From: Candidatus Omnitrophota bacterium
GTDB lineage: Bacteria > Omnitrophota > Gorgyraeia > Zapsychrales > Zapsychraceae
DNA: 51,808 nt
Direction: 5' to 3'
Assembly: GCA_020429915.1 (NCBI GenBank)
Contig: JAGQKV010000022.1
Coordinates: 116,219-168,026, forward strand
Shown here: positions 2,067-13,230 of the stretch, in pieces
Numbering within the stretch: the stretch's first letter is position 1
Layout: each line of letters begins with the position of its first letter
The notes under the pieces: model-generated
The model's database searches: none
Told to the model about the DNA's origin: nothing
What the model saw: the letters and a program-made list of their open reading frames with translations, nothing else
Program-made: the position numbers and the translations under genes

Positions 2067-5000
2067 ATGCATCGGCAAAGTTTTAGGCGTTTTTCCGGCA
2101 TCAGAAAAGTTATCACCTCGGTACTCATTCTTCCTTTCATCACCAGCTTTATCATTCCACCGCAATTAGCCAGCGCGCAGCAAATCATCAACCCCAACAA
2201 TCTGAATCTTCCGAAGCTTGGTGCCATGGTGCGTCCGACCGACGCCTATGAACCGGCCCAACTGTTGGGAATTATCGCGCATCCGGACAATCCGCTGGCC
2301 TTCGATTTCATCGTCGACCAGGGGGAAGAGCTGCTCGAGGGGCAGGCGTTCAACGAAGAGGCCCGGCGTTTGATCAAGTACTTCCTGGCCAGCCTGACCA
2401 CGCCGGAAGAAGAGATGTGGGTCAACCTGTCGCCGTATGAAGGCGAACGGGTCATCCCTTCCAATCTCGGCATCACCGAAATGGGCCGGGACATGCTTGC
2501 GCAGGACTACATTCTCAAGCAACTGACGGCTTCGTTGATGTACCCGGAAGAAGAACTCGGCGGGGAGTTCTGGCAACGGGTGCGCAAACGCGCGATGGAA
2601 AAATACGGCCACGCCGATATCCCGATGAACACCTACAACAAGATCTGGATCGTACCCAAACGCGCGACGGTGTACCAGAGCGGGGCCAGCGCCTTGATCC
2701 TCGAGAACGAGTTGCAGGTCATGATCGAGGAAGACTATGTGGCGCTGAACGCGAATCTCGACAACAAGTCGTTCGGGTTCGATCAGGTCGACAAGGAAGA
2801 GGCCGAGGAGATCAGCGGTGTGACTTCCGAGATTATCAAAGAGATCCTGATCCCGGAAATCGAGTATGAGGTCAACAACGGCCGGCACTTCGCCAAGCTG
2901 CGCCAGATCGCCAACGCGATGGTCCTGGCGACGTGGTACAAGAAGAATCTGAAAGATACCCTGCTCGGTTACGTGTATGTGGACCAGAACAAGACCCGCG
3001 GCATCGATCTTGACGACAAGACCGCGAAAGACCAGATTTACGACCGGTACATTCAGGCGTTTGAGCGCGGCGTGTACAATTATATCAAGGAGGAGTATGA
3101 TCCGCGGGAAGAGCAGATCATCCTTCGCAAGTATTTCTCCGGCGGGCTGGACTGGATCGATTACGATGACCGCACCTCGATACTGGTGCGCGAACAGGGG
3201 GCCACGATCCCGGGCCGGCTGGTCGACACGGCCACCGATACCGTCCAGAATAACGACGGTCGGCTGCGGCTGGTCGAAAATATCTTCCAGGATACCGGAC
3301 CGAATGCCGATATCGATACGATTAATGCCATCGAAAACCTGGCCAGCCGGCCGCTGGATGTCAGTCAAACCGGCTCGACCATATCCCTGAAGCCGAAAAT
3401 CACACCGTTCAATGTCCGGCGCGACGCCGCCGTTTTGGCCACGGACAAGTTCCGCGGCCTTGACCGGAATATCGCCGAGTCGATTCAGCGCACGCTGGTG
3501 CAGGGCGCGGCCGGATTGGCCGGATTGGCGACGGTGGTCACGCGTGACGATTATGAATTCCAGGCGAAATCCCAAGTTCCCGATCTGATCCGCAACCGCC
3601 TGGTCGAACTGTTCCGCGCCAACCCGCAGGTGGCGACCATTTACGTCGACGGGCAGCGGACCGATTTTCCCGATGCCGAGGGAGCCTTGGTCGTCCGGGC
3701 CACCAGCCTGGAGTCTCCGTTCAATTTGTCCACCGGGACAGCCAACGGGACCAGTTTCGAGGTGTACCAGCGCGACGGTCAACAGCTGAATGTCCGGCTC
3801 AGCGGACGGATTATGTGGGGTACGCGTCAGCGTGTGACCCTATCCGACGGGACGGTGACACAGGACTATCAGCTGACCGAAGACAATCAATTGGTTGAAG
3901 TTCCCAAGTTCCGGGAGACCGGGGGAAATGAACTGCGGATCAAGGAGGAAGGTTCTTACTATGCGTTCGGCGGCTTTTCCAAAAACCGTCCGGCCGGTGT
4001 TCAGGCCTTCATGCGGGATGTCCTGCCGACGCTCAGCGGCGTCAAGAACCGCAACGCCGAGGCCGTGACTCCGGACAGCTATCTTATCGCCAACAAGAAC
4101 GGTATGATGGCCAACTGGATGACATGGGGCGAAGCAGCCGGGCTGGCGCAGATCTACGAAGCCGCCGGGGCCGTCACTATGGTCATGACCCCGCAGGGGA
4201 TGCGCAATGTCTCGGAAATTCCGATGACGGAGGAACGGTTGTCCGGCAATGAAGAGGTGTACGTGTTTGCCGGCAGCCGGGAGACAGTCGGGCGGGTGCG
4301 TCAATTTCTGAACGCCCGGACCGACGAATATGCACAGAATTCCCGCCCGCGCCCGCGTCAACCGCGCAACGGAATCTCCGACGCGGTGTACCGCGAATCA
4401 TTTGAAACGTATCTCTCGAATGAAGTCAACGTCCCCACCGCGGCCAAGGTGAGTCAGGTGGCGGCATCGGACTTGAAAGGGCGGGCCATCGCCGCGGCCA
4501 CGGCGGTGACCGAGGCGTTCATCAGTCCGACTCCGATCGAGGAAGGACTGCTGGATGATAACCAGCGTCAGATTGTCCGGGAGTTGAAGGAAAAATATCC
4601 GGATGCGCTGACCCCCGACGGGGAACAGCTGGCCAGCCTGCGCGACGTCTTACGCGGTTACCGCAAGAATCCGGACCGGCCGAAGATCCGCAACGCCTCC
4701 GGAGACATGCAGCATCCGCTCGACTTTGCCTTCAACAACATCATTAACTACGTGCTGCGTCAAAACGGCATCACCGCGATTATCTCGGAAGAAGACGCGA
4801 CCATCGTACGCGGCATGGGCCAGGAAAACCTCGACAGCTACCGGCTGGTGGCTTTTACCGATCCGATCGACGGCTCGAGCCAAATTGAGGACGGCGGGGC
4901 CTTCGGCAGCATTATCGGCATCGGATTCCTCAAACCCAACGAAACCTTGGAGGCCGGAGAATTCAATCCCCGGGAACGCTTCCTGCTGGGATTTGACCTC

Positions 5001-8000
5001 GGCTATTCGACGGGAACGACCATCGGCATGTTCAATCTGGCCAACAATGAAGGTCGGCCCGAAGTCGTTCAGTTCGGTTTGACGCGCACCGAGGACGATC
5101 GTCTGGAGTTCCGCCGTGAATTCACCTTTCAAAATCTGATCGACGCGGAGATGGCGCAGCCGTTCGTACGCGAAAGTCTCGTTCCGGCGGTCAACCGGGA
5201 ACGGCCCGAGGACAGCGCGCTGCATTTGGCCTTGGGCGGCGCCTTTGCCGACAGCTCCCCGCAGTACCGGATTTTTATGGAATCCCTGATCGACCGTTAC
5301 GGTATGGTGCCGCAGTATACCGGGGCACTGCAGATCGACGAGAAGCGGTTGTCCACCGTGCCGAAAGTGACCCGCGCCGCCGGGGTCGGTTATATCTATC
5401 CCACACAATACACACGTGACCGTGAGACCCAGGAACTTAAGGCCTCCAAGAAACTGCGGCTCTTTTTTGAAGGTTACTATTACGCCATGAAGCGCCGCGC
5501 CATGGGGGCTGAGGTCCTCGACACCGACAAGGTGGAACCGATCCTGAACGACCGTGCCCGCGGCAACAGCCCGAGCGGGGCCAAGGCGTCGTTTATGTCC
5601 GGCAGTTCCTGGATGACGAAGATGTATATGTCCTGGAACGATTATCTCGAACGCAACACCAACCGTGTGCCCGACGTTTGGCGGCTCTCGGAAACCGAAC
5701 TGCGCGATGAGTTCGGCCGCTTCCTTGATGACTATATTGAAAGTTCCCGCCGTTTGATTCAGGACCTGGTGACCCTGTCCCGCGAGGACGGGCGGCAGAC
5801 TAAGACGCCGGAACAGGTAAGACGGGCCCTGCTGACCTACGACAGCGTGGACAAGGGCCGCAATTATTTTCCGGATTTGTTCCGCCAGACCAGGGAATCC
5901 GCGTATGACCGGCTGTTCCCCAATGACCGGCCCGGCGTGGAAGTGGTCAGTGATTTTGTTCCCACACCGTTGCCGCGACGGGATCAGGCCATCTTGGCTG
6001 ACGTGACGAAGACAGCAGATGTAGTCGGAACCGAACCGGTCATTGTTTCCCGGGCCGTGGCCCAAAGTCTTAACCGACGTAAGATTCTCGATGATTTTGC
6101 TGAAGCCGGTGGAATTTCTCCCCAGGTAACAATCGAAAATATGGTCCGCATCGGCATGGCCACCCGTGCCGAGGGTGCCGATATCTACGATTTTCAACTG
6201 ACCGATGATTTTTATGCCGATGAGAAGCTGGCCGCATTACGTGACGCGCAGGTGCAGTCTTCCCAGAATCCGGAAGCCACAGATTTGAGCGTCGTCAGGT
6301 TGCAACGGATCCTGTACAGCGGTATCAATCAGATGACCTTGTTCGATACGCTGTCCAATGACACGGACACACGCCAGTTTGTCCAAAATCTGGAAAGGAG
6401 AGACGCCTTTCCTTTATTAACCTCGGCATGGGTCCTTGACCGGGCCAAAGAGCAGGTGCAGCTCGGACGGACTGGGCCGCAGGAACGGCTGGCGTTGCGA
6501 CGTCTGATCGATCTCAGTGCGCCGGCCGCATTTCGGTCGGCCAGCGGGATTGATGTCTCATTCAGCACGCCGTCGGATTTGCTGGTCAGCTCACCTCTTT
6601 TAAAGGCGCTGGAAGAATATCAGCGATCCTATCAGTCGGACATCGCTCGGGGACAGTTCAACTACCGGGGGACAGGGACCCGACAGACGGTCGGTGAGTA
6701 TTTCCGTCAAGATTTTCAGCCCAACCACTACGACCGAATTCGGCAGTATGTCGCCGAGCAGTTCGACGGCGGACGGAACCTGAAGACCATCGTCTCCAAC
6801 GGGATTGGTGCCAACGATCAGTTTATGTGGGCTTTAGTCGAGATGTATAACCGCAACCGTGGTGAAAACGATCCGGTCTGGCGGCATGTTACGACCATGC
6901 GGGATCTGGAAGGCCTCGATATGGACCCGGCGACCACGCTGTTTATCGACATTTCCCGATCGGGCAGCACGTGGGAGGGGGTTCAGGTCGCTAACCAGAC
7001 ACTGGCCCAGGGATTTAACAAACGCATCGTGCTGGCCAACGGCGGGGCCCTCAAGGCGATTTCCGATCAAGCTAACGCTCAACAGGAAGGCGTTTCGCTG
7101 CAGGTGGGCATGCAGCCGGACATCGGCGGACGGAACATGCATCGCAAGACGCCGATCTTTTATACCGCGCAAACCGTTGTCGGGATGTTTGTCCCTGAGA
7201 TGGACGCGCCGAATTTCGCACGTCTGCACGATGAGTTCGATCAGCTCAACGATTTTTCCAATCCGCGCAGTATCGCGGTCAACGCGGCCAAGCTTCTGCA
7301 CGGTATGATCGAATTGAAGGGGACGGATCACGTCACTTTCATAAGCAATACGGAGCAAACCCGAATACTCGGGACGGAGCTGGGGCAATATTTTATGGAA
7401 GGTGCCAACAAGGACCACGTCATATCCTTCAGCGAGCACGATCTTTCCGATCAGGCCCTGGAACCGCCCGAACTGCTAACCGCCCTGGCTTCATCCCCGG
7501 CGGGAGAGCGTTCTTTTGCGATTGCGGTTTTGGATCTTGCTTCGCCGAGTTATGCGGAAGAAAACGCCCGCGTCGAAGCTCTTAAGCCGCGTATGCCGGT
7601 GGTCAGGTTCGTTGTGGACAGCCGCGAGGGGCCGATGGAGGGACTAAGTCTGACGCAACAGGCGGCCTTTGATATCTTTACTACAGACTTCATTACCGCT
7701 TTGACGTCGTTGCTGAGGGTCGACGCCAACTCCAACCCGAACGTGAAAGTCGTGCGCACACTCACCGCGGATTACGTGGCACAGTGGGAGGAAACAGCCC
7801 GGCGTTACCGGACCGATCCTATCGGCTCCGGACAGACTGATTTGTTATTCAGTTTCGGCCGTCCGGGGACAGAGGAACAGAGCAGCGTCGGTACGCCGCA
7901 GAAGCAAACTCCGATCAACTCCCAAGAGGATGCACGGGCCCAAGGCATTGCGCTGGCCGATCAGATGTTCGCGGATGAAGTTGCCCGCGGACGCGACCGG

Positions 8001-9881
8001 ATCAACTTCTTTGCCGGAACGGATCAGTTGGATGATTTTGCAAAGGAACTTCGTCTGGCGGCGTACTTGTCACCGCTGGGGACCCGGTACGGATACATCG
8101 CCGAAACCGGCGTTTATCCGCTGCGTGCGCATAAAGGGCACGAAGCCACGCTGGCTTACCGCACTCCCGAAGAAATAGCGGCCGGGCAGACACCGTTGCT
8201 TGCCAACCGTTCAGTCAATTTCTTCCTAAACCAGCGGTTGTTAGAAGGGGATCAAGAATTTTACAATCAAACGTTTCAGAATGTAACCGGTCTTGACCGA
8301 TATGACAATGTGAACGGTGCGAATATTCATCAGACGAATGACTCAATGACCTTCCCGAATATTCAGCGCGCGGCGCAGGTGGCGCCCACCGTACTTTTTG
8401 AGTTCGAACGTATGACACCGGCTGTCGAGCGGAAGCTGCGGGCCTTTAACCAAGCCTTCCTGGAACGTATGGGCGAACTGTACCAAACCCGTCCGGACTT
8501 TGCTTTGCTGGCCGATCAAGCCCGTGATCAGAACACCCGTGCCGACGCGGCCCGGCTGGCGATCAGCCGGCTGGCTGATGAGGCCGAGGACACCTTGAGC
8601 GCTTTGCGCGAACTCCTGCAAGAACGGTTCGGCCGCCTGGCCAGTCTCTTTGAAGGGGTCCGTTACGAGTTTACGGCTGAGGAGATCGCTTTGATGACCG
8701 TCGAGATTGAAGGGCTTCTGCAGGATCGTCTGCGCACCCCGGGCGTCGGTTATGTCGACGTTGTCGTTCAGGCTTTTGAACTCTCAAGCAGCCGCGACGA
8801 TGACGGCAATTTTCTGGTGCGGCCGATTGAGTTCGTCGCCTTCCTCAGCGGCACCGACAGCATTCCTCTCACGCCGGTCGAAGTGGTAGAAACGCTGCGG
8901 AATTCACAGCTGCTTTCGGTGCGGATGATCGCCGCAGCTGCCGCGCGCGGACAACTGATCGTTCGGGCGGACAGTTATGCCTTGGCCGTGCGGTCCCCCG
9001 ATAATATCAGCGCTGCCGAAATCCGCAGCATTGAGCAGGCGACGATGACGCGTCTGCGGGAGTCCGAGGTCAGTACCCTCGCCGACATCCTGTTGACCCA
9101 GGACCAGCTGCGGCAACGGTATGCCGTTGAAGAAGCGGATGAATTGCAGCAAATCAGCGCAGCGGCAGCCGAGTACAATTTTGCCCTGCCGGGAACGCCG
9201 GGCAGCACCTTGTTGGTAACCAACGGTGAGGTCCTTAACCTGCTCATCGACGAGATGAACCTGGTGTTGATGGCGTTGAACCAGGATTCGGTGAGCCGCT
9301 ACGCGGAAATCCGTCGGGCCCTGGACGAAGCGACCGGAGGACGGACCGCCGATGTAATCCGTTCGGGAGAAAATTACGAGATGGACGTGGTGGAACTGGT
9401 CCGCAACCTGAGTACATTGACGGGCAGCTCGGTGGACAATATTAACCTCGCGTTTTCGATCCCGTCCGCGTCCGACTTCCTGAAACACATCGCCAATGTT
9501 TCGGAAGTCAACCGGCGGGCCCAGGAACCGGCTGAAACGGTCACCGTAGCCGCGGCGGACGCCGCCGTCACCGCGGAGGTCAAGCCGGATACCACCGGGG
9601 GTATCGATCTCAACCCGCGTATGCTCGACCTGCAAATCAAGCGTGACAGTGAAGGCGTCCCGTTGCCGGTCAATCAGCAGCCGCTGGAAAACATGAACGT
9701 CACAGGTTTCGTACCCCTTATCATCAATGTGACCCCCATGACCAATCTCCCGCTGCTGTTCGGAATGAACGAATCCGACCAGCCGCCGCAGCAGGAATTC
9801 GGATTGGGCACGGCCGCTTCCCCTGAAGAATCGGCCGGGATCGTCATTCCGCAGGAGGCAGAACTGGGCCTTTTGCGGTAA
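2067..9881 (+). CDS. Giant exported protein with tandem FBPase-like and phosphoglucose isomerase-like domains
   Basis: 2604 residues. The start has AAGGAG at 2055-2060. Residues 14-38 form a signal peptide (basic start, hydrophobic core, ASA before QQ). Residues about 40-450 are a region I recall from Omnitrophota giant proteins (begins INPNNLNLPKLGAMVRP). About 500-750 reads as a degenerate class I fructose-1,6-bisphosphatase: the DPLDGSS position is TSLESPF (546-552), and the family's C-terminal motif survives as FAGSRE (734-739). About 850-1190 is a second FBPase domain with expected metal ligands: SEED (907-910), DPIDGSS (932-938) and KLRLFFE ending at E1135. About 1500-1960 matches phosphoglucose isomerase: NGIG (1578-1581), ISRSGSTWEG (1629-1638), PDIGGR (1684-1689) and possible catalytic E1778. 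The remainder is unassigned, with a hydrophobic stretch near residue 2550. FBPase and PGI are consecutive gluconeogenic steps, so an exported fusion is very odd. Activity and location are inference. Confidence 0.85.
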   Translation: MHRQSFRRFSGIRKVITSVLILPFITSFIIPPQLASAQQIINPNNLNLPKLGAMVRPTDAYEPAQLLGIIAHPDNPLAFDFIVDQGEELLEGQAFNEEARRLIKYFLASLTTPEEEMWVNLSPYEGERVIPSNLGITEMGRDMLAQDYILKQLTASLMYPEEELGGEFWQRVRKRAMEKYGHADIPMNTYNKIWIVPKRATVYQSGASALILENELQVMIEEDYVALNANLDNKSFGFDQVDKEEAEEISGVTSEIIKEILIPEIEYEVNNGRHFAKLRQIANAMVLATWYKKNLKDTLLGYVYVDQNKTRGIDLDDKTAKDQIYDRYIQAFERGVYNYIKEEYDPREEQIILRKYFSGGLDWIDYDDRTSILVREQGATIPGRLVDTATDTVQNNDGRLRLVENIFQDTGPNADIDTINAIENLASRPLDVSQTGSTISLKPKITPFNVRRDAAVLATDKFRGLDRNIAESIQRTLVQGAAGLAGLATVVTRDDYEFQAKSQVPDLIRNRLVELFRANPQVATIYVDGQRTDFPDAEGALVVRATSLESPFNLSTGTANGTSFEVYQRDGQQLNVRLSGRIMWGTRQRVTLSDGTVTQDYQLTEDNQLVEVPKFRETGGNELRIKEEGSYYAFGGFSKNRPAGVQAFMRDVLPTLSGVKNRNAEAVTPDSYLIANKNGMMANWMTWGEAAGLAQIYEAAGAVTMVMTPQGMRNVSEIPMTEERLSGNEEVYVFAGSRETVGRVRQFLNARTDEYAQNSRPRPRQPRNGISDAVYRESFETYLSNEVNVPTAAKVSQVAASDLKGRAIAAATAVTEAFISPTPIEEGLLDDNQRQIVRELKEKYPDALTPDGEQLASLRDVLRGYRKNPDRPKIRNASGDMQHPLDFAFNNIINYVLRQNGITAIISEEDATIVRGMGQENLDSYRLVAFTDPIDGSSQIEDGGAFGSIIGIGFLKPNETLEAGEFNPRERFLLGFDLGYSTGTTIGMFNLANNEGRPEVVQFGLTRTEDDRLEFRREFTFQNLIDAEMAQPFVRESLVPAVNRERPEDSALHLALGGAFADSSPQYRIFMESLIDRYGMVPQYTGALQIDEKRLSTVPKVTRAAGVGYIYPTQYTRDRETQELKASKKLRLFFEGYYYAMKRRAMGAEVLDTDKVEPILNDRARGNSPSGAKASFMSGSSWMTKMYMSWNDYLERNTNRVPDVWRLSETELRDEFGRFLDDYIESSRRLIQDLVTLSREDGRQTKTPEQVRRALLTYDSVDKGRNYFPDLFRQTRESAYDRLFPNDRPGVEVVSDFVPTPLPRRDQAILADVTKTADVVGTEPVIVSRAVAQSLNRRKILDDFAEAGGISPQVTIENMVRIGMATRAEGADIYDFQLTDDFYADEKLAALRDAQVQSSQNPEATDLSVVRLQRILYSGINQMTLFDTLSNDTDTRQFVQNLERRDAFPLLTSAWVLDRAKEQVQLGRTGPQERLALRRLIDLSAPAAFRSASGIDVSFSTPSDLLVSSPLLKALEEYQRSYQSDIARGQFNYRGTGTRQTVGEYFRQDFQPNHYDRIRQYVAEQFDGGRNLKTIVSNGIGANDQFMWALVEMYNRNRGENDPVWRHVTTMRDLEGLDMDPATTLFIDISRSGSTWEGVQVANQTLAQGFNKRIVLANGGALKAISDQANAQQEGVSLQVGMQPDIGGRNMHRKTPIFYTAQTVVGMFVPEMDAPNFARLHDEFDQLNDFSNPRSIAVNAAKLLHGMIELKGTDHVTFISNTEQTRILGTELGQYFMEGANKDHVISFSEHDLSDQALEPPELLTALASSPAGERSFAIAVLDLASPSYAEENARVEALKPRMPVVRFVVDSREGPMEGLSLTQQAAFDIFTTDFITALTSLLRVDANSNPNVKVVRTLTADYVAQWEETARRYRTDPIGSGQTDLLFSFGRPGTEEQSSVGTPQKQTPINSQEDARAQGIALADQMFADEVARGRDRINFFAGTDQLDDFAKELRLAAYLSPLGTRYGYIAETGVYPLRAHKGHEATLAYRTPEEIAAGQTPLLANRSVNFFLNQRLLEGDQEFYNQTFQNVTGLDRYDNVNGANIHQTNDSMTFPNIQRAAQVAPTVLFEFERMTPAVERKLRAFNQAFLERMGELYQTRPDFALLADQARDQNTRADAARLAISRLADEAEDTLSALRELLQERFGRLASLFEGVRYEFTAEEIALMTVEIEGLLQDRLRTPGVGYVDVVVQAFELSSSRDDDGNFLVRPIEFVAFLSGTDSIPLTPVEVVETLRNSQLLSVRMIAAAAARGQLIVRADSYALAVRSPDNISAAEIRSIEQATMTRLRESEVSTLADILLTQDQLRQRYAVEEADELQQISAAAAEYNFALPGTPGSTLLVTNGEVLNLLIDEMNLVLMALNQDSVSRYAEIRRALDEATGGRTADVIRSGENYEMDVVELVRNLSTLTGSSVDNINLAFSIPSASDFLKHIANVSEVNRRAQEPAETVTVAAADAAVTAEVKPDTTGGIDLNPRMLDLQIKRDSEGVPLPVNQQPLENMNVTGFVPLIINVTPMTNLPLLFGMNESDQPPQQEFGLGTAASPEESAGIVIPQEAELGLLR

Positions 9882-10086: not shown

Positions 10087-11148
10087 ATGATTAATATCGG
10101 ACTTATCGGCTGCGGATATTGGGGACCCAATCTGTTGCGCAATTTTATGGATTGCCCCGAAAGTCAGGTGTTTGCCGTGGCCGATCTGGACGAGTCCCGC
10201 CTCGCCTACGTTCGCGAAAAATATCCTTCCATTCATACTACCTCGGATTATACGGCCTTGTTCAATCCGGGGGTCGACGCGGTGGTCATTGCCACGCAAC
10301 CGCGGACCCACTACCGGTTGGCCAAAGAGGCCTTGCTGCAGGGCAAACATGTGCTGGTCGAGAAGCCGCTGGCCAAATCGGTGGCCGAGGCAGAAGAATT
10401 GGTCGCGCTGGCCGCCGAACGCGGGTTGAAGCTGATGGTCGGCCATACGTTTGAATACAACGCGGCGGTCCGTGAGCTTAAGAAACAAATCAAAGCGGGG
10501 ACCGTGGGCAAACCGTATTATCTCTATTCTCAACGGTTGAACTTCGGGGTTGTCCGCCAGGACGTCAATGCGCTGTGGAATCTCGCGCCGCATGATGTGT
10601 CGATTTTGATTTATCTTCTGGAGGCCATGCCGTTATCGGTGTCGTGCCGGGGTTTTGACTTTATCCAGCCGGGTATTCAGGACATCGTTTTCATGGTACT
10701 CAAGTTTCCCGATAATGTAGTAGCCCATGTGCAGGTCAGTTGGCTCGATCCCAGCAAAGTCCGTAAAATGACCGTGGTCGGCAGCGAGAAGATGATTATC
10801 TACAATGACATGGACGAGAACAAGATTCAGGTTTTCGACAAGGGAATCAAGGTTGAAAACAAGGGGGAATCGCTCGGTCCCTATGACGACTTTGAGAAGT
10901 ACAAACTGATCAAGCGGGCGGGGGATGTCCATTACCCGCCGCTGGAATTTTCCGAGCCGCTCAAGGATGAATGTCTGGACTTCGTCCGGAGTATTATCGA
11001 TGACCGCGCGCCGCTGGCGGACGGCCAAAACGGTTTGCGTGTCGTGCGCGTATTGGAAACGGCGCAGGACTCGATGGATCTGCACGGCGTGGCGCTGGAC
11101 GTCCGCCGGACCTCACCTAACAGAAAGCAACCTTCACTGACACCCTAA
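10087..11148 (+). CDS. Gfo/Idh/MocA family sugar dehydrogenase
   Basis: This 353-residue NAD(P)-dependent oxidoreductase probably acts on a nucleotide sugar. The N-terminal Rossmann fold opens with IGLIGCGYWGPN. The family motif EKPLAKS is at 92-98 (K93), and H169 in WNLAPHD fits the usual catalytic histidine. It is followed 14 bases later by a DegT-type aminotransferase, the common pair that oxidises and then aminates a UDP-sugar for surface polysaccharide (as in WbpB/WbpE), so a 3-keto sugar product is a reasonable inference. A TATAAT at 10028-10033 could be its -10 box, but no good -35 box is seen. Exact substrate unknown. Confidence 0.9.
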   Translation: MINIGLIGCGYWGPNLLRNFMDCPESQVFAVADLDESRLAYVREKYPSIHTTSDYTALFNPGVDAVVIATQPRTHYRLAKEALLQGKHVLVEKPLAKSVAEAEELVALAAERGLKLMVGHTFEYNAAVRELKKQIKAGTVGKPYYLYSQRLNFGVVRQDVNALWNLAPHDVSILIYLLEAMPLSVSCRGFDFIQPGIQDIVFMVLKFPDNVVAHVQVSWLDPSKVRKMTVVGSEKMIIYNDMDENKIQVFDKGIKVENKGESLGPYDDFEKYKLIKRAGDVHYPPLEFSEPLKDECLDFVRSIIDDRAPLADGQNGLRVVRVLETAQDSMDLHGVALDVRRTSPNRKQPSLTP

Positions 11149-11162
11149 ACACACCGGAACCC

Positions 11163-12293
11163 ATGACCATGATTCCTCTTGTCGATTTGAAAAGGCAGTA
11201 TGCCTTAATCAAGGACGAAATCAAACAGACCGTCGATCAAACGATCGACAGCATGCAGTTTATCAACGGACCGCAGATCAAGGCCTTCGAGGCCGAATTC
11301 GCGCGTCTCTCGGGAGCGCAGCACGGCGTCGGCGCCAGCTCCGGGACCACGGCCCTTCAGCTGGCCTTAAAGGCGCTCGATATCGGGCCGGGTGACGAAG
11401 TAATCACCGTACCGAATACATTCATCGCCACAACCGAGGCGATCACCCACAGCGGAGCGCGGGTGATCTTCGCGGACGTCGATGAGCGCACCTATAATAT
11501 CGATCCCGCTGCAGTGGAGGCCGCGATTACACCCAAAACAAAGGCCGTGATCGGTGTGCACCTTTACGGACAGCCGTGTGATATCATGGCCGTCACCGCG
11601 GTGGCCGACCGGCACGGGTTGAAAGTAATCTTTGATTCGGCCCAGGCACATTTGGCGGAATTCGGGGGAGAGCCCATCGGCCGTTACGGCGACGTGATTT
11701 GCTACAGTTTTTATCCGGGCAAGAATCTCGGCGCCTACGGGGATGGCGGGATCGCCTTAACCAATGACGAAGAATTGGGCCGGAAGATGTTCATGCTGGC
11801 CGATCACGGCCGGCTGGATAAATACGAGCATCTCATGGAAGGCTTCAACTTCCGCCTGTCGGAAGTGCAGGCCGCGATCCTCAACGTGAAGCTTAAGTAT
11901 CTGCCGGAGTGGACCCGCAGCCGTCAGCAGTGCGCCGCGCGTTACGATAAAATGCTCACCGAATTGTCCATCACGCCGCCCTATCGCGATGAACGTTGCA
12001 CGCATGTTTATCACCTGTATGTGATCCGTGTTCCCAATCGGGACGCGGTGAAGTCCTATCTCAACGAACGTGGCATCGGTGCCGGTGTTCACTATCCGAT
12101 CTGCCTGCATCTTCAGCAGGCCTACGCGCATTTCGGGCACAAGCCCGGAGACTTTCCGGTGGCGGAAAGGTGTGCTTCCGAGATCCTGTCTCTGCCGATG
12201 TTTCCGGAATTGACGCCCGACGATCAGCTCACCGTGATTTCGACGCTCAAAGAGGCCCTCGCCGCTTGCGGAGGAAGCGCGCAGCATGTATAG
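11163..12293 (+). CDS. DegT/DnrJ/EryC1/StrS family PLP-dependent sugar aminotransferase
   Basis: This 376-residue enzyme transfers an amino group to a keto sugar nucleotide using pyridoxal phosphate. The family's N-terminal signature (IPLVDLKRQYALI) and GTTALQLALKALDIGPGDEVI are clear. K187 in SFYPGKNLGAYGDGG is the expected PLP-binding lysine. The C-terminal motif YHLYVIRVPNRD and GVHYPICLH also fit. The length is normal. The gene before it is a sugar dehydrogenase and the next gene, a glycosyltransferase, overlaps its last 8 bases, so the three form one operon for an amino-sugar-containing glycan. The ATG at 11163 is used; an in-frame ATG three codons later is the alternative. Confidence 0.92.
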   Translation: MTMIPLVDLKRQYALIKDEIKQTVDQTIDSMQFINGPQIKAFEAEFARLSGAQHGVGASSGTTALQLALKALDIGPGDEVITVPNTFIATTEAITHSGARVIFADVDERTYNIDPAAVEAAITPKTKAVIGVHLYGQPCDIMAVTAVADRHGLKVIFDSAQAHLAEFGGEPIGRYGDVICYSFYPGKNLGAYGDGGIALTNDEELGRKMFMLADHGRLDKYEHLMEGFNFRLSEVQAAILNVKLKYLPEWTRSRQQCAARYDKMLTELSITPPYRDERCTHVYHLYVIRVPNRDAVKSYLNERGIGAGVHYPICLHLQQAYAHFGHKPGDFPVAERCASEILSLPMFPELTPDDQLTVISTLKEALAACGGSAQHV

Positions 12294-13230
12294 AGATAAA
12301 AAAATCTCACTGGTGATTCCCGCCTACAACGAAGAAAAACTTATCAAACCGACCCTGGAGAACGTCCCGCAACTCATCGACCGGATTTACGTGGTCAATG
12401 ACTGCAGTCCGGACAGGCTCGCCGACGTGGTCAACGAATTGGCCAAAAAGGACAAGCGCGTCACGCTGATCAATCATGAAGAAAATCAGGGGCCGGGCGG
12501 GGCGATCATCACCGGTTACCTGCAGTCCAATAAGGACGGTTATGATATCGCAGTTGTGGTCGGCGGTGACTATCAAATGCCGCTTGATGAGGTCGAGCAT
12601 TTCCTCGACCCGTTGATCGACAAGGAAGCGGATTATACGAAGGGCAACCGGTTTTTCGTGTGGGACAAGACCCGGGAGAAGATGCCGAAGATCCGCATTT
12701 TCGGAAATATCGTGATCACCGCCATGACCAAGATCGCCTCCGGTTATTACAAGATTATGGATGTGGTCGACGGATACACCGCGATCACCAAAGAGGCGAT
12801 CGACAAGGTCGACTGGAAGATCGCTTGGAAACGGTACGGTTATCCGATGGATTTTCTCATCCGGTTGAACGCCTACGGCATCCGGGTCAAGGATGTGCCG
12901 CGCACGCCGATTTATCTGGAAGGCGAACGCCAGTCGCAAATTAAGGGGCCGCGCTACGCGCTGCGTGTGTCGCCGATGCTGATCCGCGGGTTTTTCTGGC
13001 GGATGTATTTCAAGTACATCTATCTCGATTTTCACCCCCTGGTGTTCTTTTTTTTCTGCGGGATCATCTTGTTTCCCTTCGGATTGGTCCTGGGATTCGA
13101 ACAAATCTATCGCGAACTATTCGGCGGCGGCGCCACCGGGCCCAAGGCCATCCTCTGCGCGATGTCGATCATCACCGGACTGCAATTTTTGTTGTTCGGC
13201 ATGTGGTTCGACATGGAAATGAGCAAATAG
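12286..13230 (+). CDS. Family 2 glycosyltransferase with C-terminal membrane segments
   Basis: 314 residues. The N-terminal 230 residues are a GT-A fold like polyprenyl-phosphate sugar synthases: VIPAYNEEKLIKPTLENV at 8-25, INHEENQGPGGAIITGY near 65 and GGDYQMP near 92 in place of the usual DxD loop. VDGYTAITKEAIDKVDW matches the acceptor-loop region of this group. Two hydrophobic segments at about 245-265 and 285-305 anchor it in the membrane. It probably charges undecaprenyl phosphate or extends a lipid-linked glycan; the sugar is unknown. The start overlaps the aminotransferase stop by 8 bases, showing translational coupling. It is followed 13 bases later by a DUF354 protein. Confidence 0.88.
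   Translation: MYRDKKISLVIPAYNEEKLIKPTLENVPQLIDRIYVVNDCSPDRLADVVNELAKKDKRVTLINHEENQGPGGAIITGYLQSNKDGYDIAVVVGGDYQMPLDEVEHFLDPLIDKEADYTKGNRFFVWDKTREKMPKIRIFGNIVITAMTKIASGYYKIMDVVDGYTAITKEAIDKVDWKIAWKRYGYPMDFLIRLNAYGIRVKDVPRTPIYLEGERQSQIKGPRYALRVSPMLIRGFFWRMYFKYIYLDFHPLVFFFFCGIILFPFGLVLGFEQIYRELFGGGATGPKAILCAMSIITGLQFLLFGMWFDMEMSK

Follow-up and report, generated by a model that had tools for sequence, protein, structure and literature searches.

A family of large Omnitrophota proteins with constant ends, a predicted signal peptide and central-metabolic enzymes as variable cargo

Omnitrophota harbor a large family of carrier proteins that share one architecture, consisting of a Sec signal peptide, a constant N-terminal module (N-module), a variable cargo and a constant C-terminal module (C-module). 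We describe this family from a single gene in the window, the 51,808 nucleotides of contig JAGQKV010000022.1 that were analyzed, and from its 35 members in the same genome (3.35 Mb on 33 contigs, 94% complete) and its relatives in other genomes. The recognized cargos are largely enzymes of central carbon and glucan metabolism. Judged from a nearly complete loss of cysteine that mostly spares catalytic positions, these cargo enzymes are probably exported and selected for catalysis.

Results

The gene that led to the family encodes a protein of 2604 residues (Table 1). Its frame opens with an ATG and contains no internal stops in the open reading frame check. The signal peptide that had been read from the sequence in the initial annotation is borne out by a heuristic rule, which finds an n-region charge of +5, a hydrophobic core at residues 15-25 and an AxA site; in the AlphaFold2 model residues 10-26 form a helix. 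Downstream, at 10087-13230 of the window, translations resemble a sugar oxidoreductase, a DegT aminotransferase and a glycosyltransferase, as in a polysaccharide cluster.

Table 1. Parts of the giant gene in the window. Borders of FBPase copies A and B were set by eye.
Feature	Residues	Position	Strand	Remarks
Whole gene		2067..9881	+	Giant protein, predicted to be exported, 2604 aa, zero cysteines
Sec-type signal peptide (ASA-Q)	1-37	2067..2177	+	Heuristic rule and model helix
Constant N-module	38-365	2178..3161	+	35 copies in own genome
FBPase-like copy A	~500-770	3564..4376	+	Active-site motifs lost, pseudo-copy; moderate assignment
FBPase copy B	~850-1190	4614..5636	+	SEED, DPIDGSS and KLRLFFE present
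PGI-fold region	1297-2160	5955..8546	+	Conserved in genomes G009 and G014
Constant C-module	2505-2568	9579..9770	+	GGIDLNP...GFVPLIINVTP..NLPLLFG; 35 copies in own genome

The FBPase domain with SEED and DPIDGSS motifs proposed earlier is matched by profiles, and the motifs lie where they had been placed. Copy B matches Pfam PF00316 over residues 874-952 (E 6.7e-8), with 32.8 or 35.4 bits in two scans and a gathering score of 34.8. The assignment to the class I FBPase family by Pfam profile is borderline, because the NCBIfam class 1 models, with E values down to 6.7e-9, score only far below their equivalog cut-offs. FBPases in the PDB match copy B with E values down to 6.2e-6, and their alignment places SEED at residues 907-910 and DPIDGSS at 932-938. 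Comparison of the active site with E. coli Fbp finds these motifs kept together with the block KLRLFFE, which pairs with KLRLLYE of the E. coli enzyme. The metal-binding E/E, DPxDGSS and the C-terminal block of class I FBPases are all present in copy B, whereas copy A fails in this comparison; its best stretch is residues 525-682 (NF006786; E 9.1e-8 for the whole protein, in two stretches), and the SEED/DPLDGSS metal-site motifs are absent from it in the alignment with E. coli Fbp. Copy B thus shares SEED, DPIDGSS and KLRLFFE with class I FBPases, and differs from them in that it sits in tandem with a degenerate copy in a putatively exported protein.

The second proposed domain, a PGI-like one, stands in its motifs and, by a low-confidence model, in its fold, while its sequence evidence is weak. 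NGIG (1578-1581), ISRSGSTWEG (1629-1638) and PDIGGR (1684-1689) are invariant across the three genomes having the PGI region. Giant proteins in G009 and G014, two other genomes of the family Zapsychraceae, contain parts with 48-50% identity to residues 1297-2160. The AlphaFold2 model of these residues has a mean pLDDT of 57, that is low confidence, and its best Foldseek matches are solved phosphoglucose isomerases (E from 1.3e-8). An NCBIfam PGI/PMI model matches only at E 0.0024, far below its cut-off. A profile search of the genome for PF00342 gave 0 matches, a three-row profile of the region found nothing among PDB sequences at E<=10, and hhalign with E. coli Pgi gave a weak match only. We name the region a PGI-like fold and not a family member, because it stays below the PF00342 and NCBIfam cut-offs. 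It has fold and motif order in common with the PGI/SIS fold and, unlike canonical PGI, is distant in sequence and beneath recognition by PF00342. Canonical PGI is found as cargo in a relative (L124), and the cargo of another (L104) matches E. coli Pgi.

The two ends of the protein recur throughout the genome. Residues 1-478 as query find 35 places, in open frames of 865-5139 aa. A model of the C-module likewise gives 35 hits, and the lengths of their frames are the same 35; exactly 35 proteins, 821-5092 aa long, contain both modules. The C-module spans about 60 aa, occurs once per protein, lies 2-92 aa from the end and has the consensus GGIDLnP...I.Gf.PVIInitPvtnLPLLLG. The N-module (~330 aa) was aligned in 52 rows with 40-66% identity to the window copy, and its AlphaFold2 model has a mean pLDDT of 80 and a pTM of 0.77; it has no match in Pfam, and PDB searches gave none either, with a cut-off of E<=10 for the profile and of E<=0.001 for the fold. 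Between these ends the proteins differ, with near-zero mutual similarity of the middles among the matches listed in an all-against-all BLASTP. A hydrophobic N-terminus is present in 35/35, and 33/35 satisfy a simple signal-peptide rule. Behind the signal, 36 proteins (the 35 and L081 of a relative) have 0-3 windows resembling transmembrane segments, and 22 of the 36 have none. Among the Pfam matches listed for the 35 there are neither adhesion domains (discoidin, laminin G, dockerin) nor RTX, autotransporter or beta-barrel secretion domains; in 34 of these scans the N-module had been removed beforehand, and one list gives 25 of 31 families. The bracket of N- and C-module very probably serves export and placement.

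The modules extend far beyond this genome. Matches to the whole protein occur in 83 of 93 genomes, counting its own, and among the matches listed the N-module is nearly always responsible. Of 193 genomes sampled across the phylum, 56 match a model of the N-module, and all 56 lie inside the class of the window; the class listing of this survey left out 117 genomes without a match. A scan of GTDB genomes confirmed 485 relatives. The best 80 of these 485, kept as 79 loci, carry titles of Omnitrophota or Omnitrophica such as Aceula lacicola, Zapsychrus exili and an Elulimicrobium, and also include bacterium 8_bin.41 and one labeled Planctomycetales. These loci hold 94 ORFs with an N-module, many of which end at locus borders; 63 are 3'-complete and the C-module is found in 59 of the 63. 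The FBPase and PGI-like part, for which a survey had been suggested, found matches in just 4 of the order's 82 genomes (own included, one of the four by a 69-residue hit). Cargo exchange between genomes is fast.

The cargos of the 35 proteins, as recognized by Pfam, contain many steps of one metabolic route. Often a cargo holds a single enzyme of cytosolic type or several of them, which in some cases catalyze consecutive steps. A single protein (L052) combines malate synthase, class I aldolase and isocitrate lyase (ICL). UDP-glucose pyrophosphorylase and PGM are found at L052/L053, a GTP-dependent PEPCK at L053, a PPDK-type enzyme at L065, a branching enzyme with two glycogen synthases and GH77 at L055, and a Glu/Leu dehydrogenase at L074; the window protein adds FBPase and the PGI-like domain. 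Further cargos are SIS, ROK, starch-synthase-like and PEP-utilizer pieces. Other members carry HTH, histidine-kinase ATPase, methyltransferase, response regulator, M48, ABC1 kinase, HEAT or WD40 domains, and several have no Pfam match at all. The cargo of L058 (contig C23, 2138 aa) holds an AprA-type methyltransferase, PALP, NUDIX and MaoC and resembles enzymes of secondary metabolism. On contig C1, six giant genes lie inside 58 kb (68-126 kb), encoding malate synthase-aldolase-ICL, UDP-glucose pyrophosphorylase-PGM, PEPCK, one unrecognized cargo, a cargo weakly matching BadF, and FBPase-PGI. The initial annotation had proposed a two-step system. The two enzymes are indeed consecutive, and sequence evidence supports a predicted exported protein carrying them in pathway order; the system itself is only a fragment of this larger set of 35 paralogues with many pathway steps.

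In the relatives, additional steps appear. In Zapsychrus exili one protein of 2991 aa (L170) carries GAPDH-GAPDH-PGK-enolase, and in Aceula lacicola L127 carries two GAPDH domains and an acyl-CoA dehydrogenase. Other cargos comprise PGK-enolase (L110), PGK (L108), PGM with canonical PGI (L124), PGI (L104), FBPase with GH77 (L166), aldolase in two BLASTP matches with TPI (L169), PPDK (L180), glycogen synthase (L167), transketolase (L115), a Glu/Leu-dehydrogenase-like domain with a PGI-like domain and PGM (L081), and adenylate kinase with a PGI-like domain in a protein whose start lies past the contig end (L082). Of the 86 cargos of at least 300 aa in relatives, 15 were scanned with Pfam, 14 of them taken by random order with a split by length; L167 replaced the next in order (L181:4750-7458) since it already matched glycogen synthase, and L124, L166 and L122 already matched own cargos when selected. 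Eight of the 15 are related to central carbon or glucan metabolism (L122 weakly; L107 as GH116), two are other (L121, L181), and five gave nothing or weak matches only. Searched with 107 E. coli references, the 131 giant ORFs match 13 of 32 core proteins and 9 of 75 others (Fisher p 0.0015), a p value that is indicative only, the references having been chosen by hand from the fetched regions. PFK and pyruvate kinase, which serve glycolysis alone, are not among the Pfam matches listed for the 35, and E. coli PfkA and PykF have no match at E<=1e-6 among the 131 giant ORFs. Enolase, PGK, GAPDH and TPI are found as cargo in relatives, and none was recognized among the own 35; the exported chain of this genome would therefore be incomplete unless its site of action supplies these steps.

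For several enzymes the giant form is the only one found. Ordinary copies of FBPase I, PEPCK, ICL, malate synthase, class I aldolase and GlgB were absent at E<=1e-3 from this 94%-complete genome, and GlpX and a PF00342 PGI have no match anywhere in it; a look for separate fbp and pgi genes, likewise suggested at the outset, thus came back empty. GAPDH, PGK, PFK, PK (over ~70% of length) and TPI match ordinary frames of 258-462 aa, the TPI match with one in-frame stop reported. Glycogen synthase and GH77 are present as ordinary ORFs as well. E. coli enolase and class II aldolase find no match in the genome at E<=1e-3.

Active sites of the cargos are mostly kept. The GlgB cargo is 46% identical to E. 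coli GlgB and retains RVDAV, AEEST and GHDE. In the aldolase cargo ADES, KWR, EPE and the Lys are kept and SFGR replaces SYGR, in the ICL cargo KKCGH and NLSPSFNW are kept, and the PGI of L124, with 52% identity to E. coli Pgi, keeps its active-site blocks. The PGM domain common to an own cargo and L124 has a dN of 0.17, with dS saturated. In the PEPCK cargo the P-loop Cys is changed to Gly and a conserved Arg is lost (FGGRR to FGGRQ), and the own PGM cargo reads TRSHVE where L081 reads SASHNP. Being altered at conserved places, the PEPCK and the own PGM may be weakened.

A further feature of the family is the distribution of cysteine. The mature parts of the 35 proteins (beyond residue 40) contain 13 cysteines in 71,522 residues, or 0.018%, whereas the 109 other ORFs on these stretches average 1.22% (per-protein Mann-Whitney p 7e-19). 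We considered that exported proteins might be poor in cysteine in general; this is countered by the 0.75% found in 17 exported-like ORFs, a rough control because the heuristic admits some cytosolic-looking ORFs. Residues 1-40 of the 35 still hold 36 cysteines in 1,400, hence the purge starts behind the signal peptide. Of the 13 mature cysteines, four lie in the active-site motifs of ICL and PPDK, four in internal lipobox-like segments (L063, L064) and five elsewhere. The catalytic cysteine is kept in 7/7 aligned copies, at positions equivalent to PpsA C751 (one copy), AceA C195 (two) and GapA C150 (four), which we take to be the catalytic ones. Other cysteines of the E. coli enzymes are kept in 0/47 aligned columns, and in 0/44 without gap columns; since these are not all conserved among homologues, we place the weight on the overall cysteine frequency and on the spared catalytic residues. 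One copy departs from the rule. The PEP-utilizer domain of the 1637-aa protein L056 covers profile positions 151-257 of 293, and with them the site of the catalytic Cys of L065, and L056 has zero Cys behind its signal, so that this catalytic Cys is lost and the tally becomes 7/8. In relatives the absence of cysteine is less strict than in the own 35: 91 cargos contain 89 cysteines in 127,061 residues, 52 have none, and L176 and L175 have 9 and 7. As cysteine is purged nearly everywhere and mostly spared at catalytic positions, the cargo enzymes have probably been exported and selected as enzymes.

Two further observations concern the remaining cysteines. Cysteine segments of L063 (residues 1391, 1394), L064 (435, 438), L107 and L157, which we assume to be lipobox-like, give the impression that complete lipoproteins, signals included, became part of the cargo by fusion. 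Residues 183-192 of the L132 passenger contain a CxxxxxR motif, another kept Cys at a possibly catalytic place, which presumably resembles the motif of low-molecular-weight tyrosine phosphatases.

Discussion

Loss of cysteine except where the chemistry needs it is what would be expected of exported enzymes in use. The proteins would then cross the inner membrane and fold there into active enzymes, at a site that would have to provide nucleotides, NAD and CoA. Malate synthase and isocitrate lyase, the enzymes of the glyoxylate shunt, could lead to oxaloacetate, and PEPCK and PPDK to PEP. Enolase, PGK, GAPDH, TPI and aldolase would come next, the first four recognized only in relatives. FBPase and PGI of the 2604-aa protein would deliver glucose 6-phosphate. 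PGM and UDP-glucose pyrophosphorylase would follow, and the route might end with glycogen synthase, branching enzyme and glucanotransferase. PEPCK, PPDK, UDP-glucose pyrophosphorylase, GAPDH and acyl-CoA dehydrogenase need GTP or ATP, UTP, NAD or flavin-coupled acceptors. It seems natural to look for a cytoplasm-like site, since the exported set needs ATP/GTP, UTP, NAD and CoA compounds. Predation or parasitism, that is a lifestyle linked to a host or prey, has been proposed for Omnitrophota in the accessible part of PMC10066038 (Seymour et al. 2023). Because a cytoplasm-like site is needed and such lifestyles have been proposed for the phylum, we tentatively prefer delivery into a prey or host cell. 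Of the places where the enzymes may act, the likeliest, at a probability below one half, seems to us the cytoplasm of such a cell, attached or engulfed, or a compartment holding its contents; there the enzymes would convert the carbon of the victim into sugar phosphates and glucan, to the benefit of the Omnitrophota cell. In its full form the proposal is possible, though short of probable: the gluconeogenic and glycogen polyenzymes would enter this cytoplasm together with the methyltransferase, HTH and kinase cargos, and would there convert acyl-CoA and organic and amino acids of the prey into sugar and glucan, while glycolysis would stay in the own cytoplasm and gluconeogenesis would be placed in the exported space.

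The export signature and the cysteine purge would also fit an enlarged periplasm or coat of the own cell, where extracellular glucan might be made from sugar phosphates of dying neighbors without entry into any cell. The glycogen-making and GH77 cargos suit such a compartment. However, several cargos need nucleotides, NAD or flavin acceptors, which from general biochemistry are unexpected in a periplasm, and the HTH and methyltransferase cargos have no evident use there; we regard this as a lesser possibility. That the proteins stay inside, with the N-terminal helix as an uncleaved or unused anchor and the cargos as fused gluconeogenic enzymes of the own cytosol, appears unlikely to us. Since PEPCK, ICL, malate synthase and FBPase have no ordinary copy, the giant proteins could be the own cytosolic route of the cell, and the same holds for class I aldolase and GlgB as well as for the missing GlpX and PF00342 PGI. 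Yet glycogen synthase and GH77 do have ordinary ORFs, 33/35 proteins show signal-like features, cysteine is kept in the first 40 residues and purged from the mature parts, and the mature parts have less of it than the 17 exported-like ORFs of the same genome.

The initial annotation had also considered that enzyme folds are reused as adhesion modules. In this case the folds would be mere bulk for adhesins or surface layers and their activity irrelevant, in line with the degenerate FBPase copy A, the L056 PEP-utilizer copy without its catalytic Cys, the HEAT and WD40 cargos, and the adhesion proposed for giant ORFs of Omnitrophota in the accessible text of PMC10066038. For the enzyme cargos this reading is disfavored by GlgB, aldolase, ICL and PGI, whose active-site blocks are preserved; a purge that spares catalytic cysteines in 7/7 aligned copies and an enrichment for one pathway (indicative, as noted) also speak against it, and we hold it to be quite improbable. 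Degenerate copy A, HEAT, WD40 and unrecognized cargos could be structural. Random capture of domains is weakened by the pathway content and is possible for the HEAT, WD40, HTH and methyltransferase cargos. Draft genomes among the relatives and lipobox-like segments inside four cargos (L063, L064, L107, L157) might suggest that neighboring genes were fused by MAG errors or by pseudogenization and read-through. Such an artefact has a negligible chance and we consider it ruled out, because both ends stand in one frame in 35/35 and the same design is seen in many independent genomes; the cysteine purge moreover spans the whole length.

Several known systems share single features with the family. 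Polymorphic effectors are secreted families with a fixed trafficking end and quickly exchanged cargo. The 35-member family likewise combines fixed trafficking ends with exchanged cargo; in contrast to these effectors, both of its ends are fixed and the recognized cargo is largely central metabolism. Substrates of RTX/type I secretion and autotransporters are large exported proteins very low in cysteine, as are our proteins, which unlike them carry a predicted Sec signal peptide and have no RTX or beta-barrel match among those listed. Glycolytic enzymes moonlighting on bacterial surfaces are signal-less cytosolic copies. They are found outside the bacterium, as we propose for the present enzymes, whereas the 35-member set is dedicated, fused, cysteine-purged and putatively exported.

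Closest in origin are the Omnitrophota ORFs of more than 20 kb with few annotated domains, for which the accessible part of PMC10066038 proposes adhesion or a coat and whose Velamenicoccia members it describes as poorly conserved. They come from the same phylum and are large ORFs as in our family, which differs from that description by its size of 0.8-5.1 kaa in this genome, its fixed modules, its metabolic cargo and its cysteine purge. Glycogen synthesis of Aceula and Zapsychrus is given as ordinary metabolism in the accessible text of PMC8542988, and that of PMC12057145 cites the giant-gene preprint of West-Roberts et al. Neither the shared modules nor exported gluconeogenesis are described in the accessible parts of PMC10066038, PMC8542988, PMC12057145 and PMC11573180, and a literature search, with bioRxiv preprints outside it, found no description of such a system.

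Central carbon metabolism is the textbook mark of the cytoplasm. Here it takes a predicted exported multi-enzyme form, which in this genome comprises dozens of paralogues per cell and is met again in its class. Cysteine lost almost everywhere and kept at most catalytic positions offers a natural test of enzyme use, whatever the location. If our reading is true, it would reveal a novel means by which a cell affects other cells, or a new extracytoplasmic metabolism. It would further explain what some of the puzzling large Omnitrophota ORFs do, and would make the predicted predatory or parasitic life of these bacteria directly testable.
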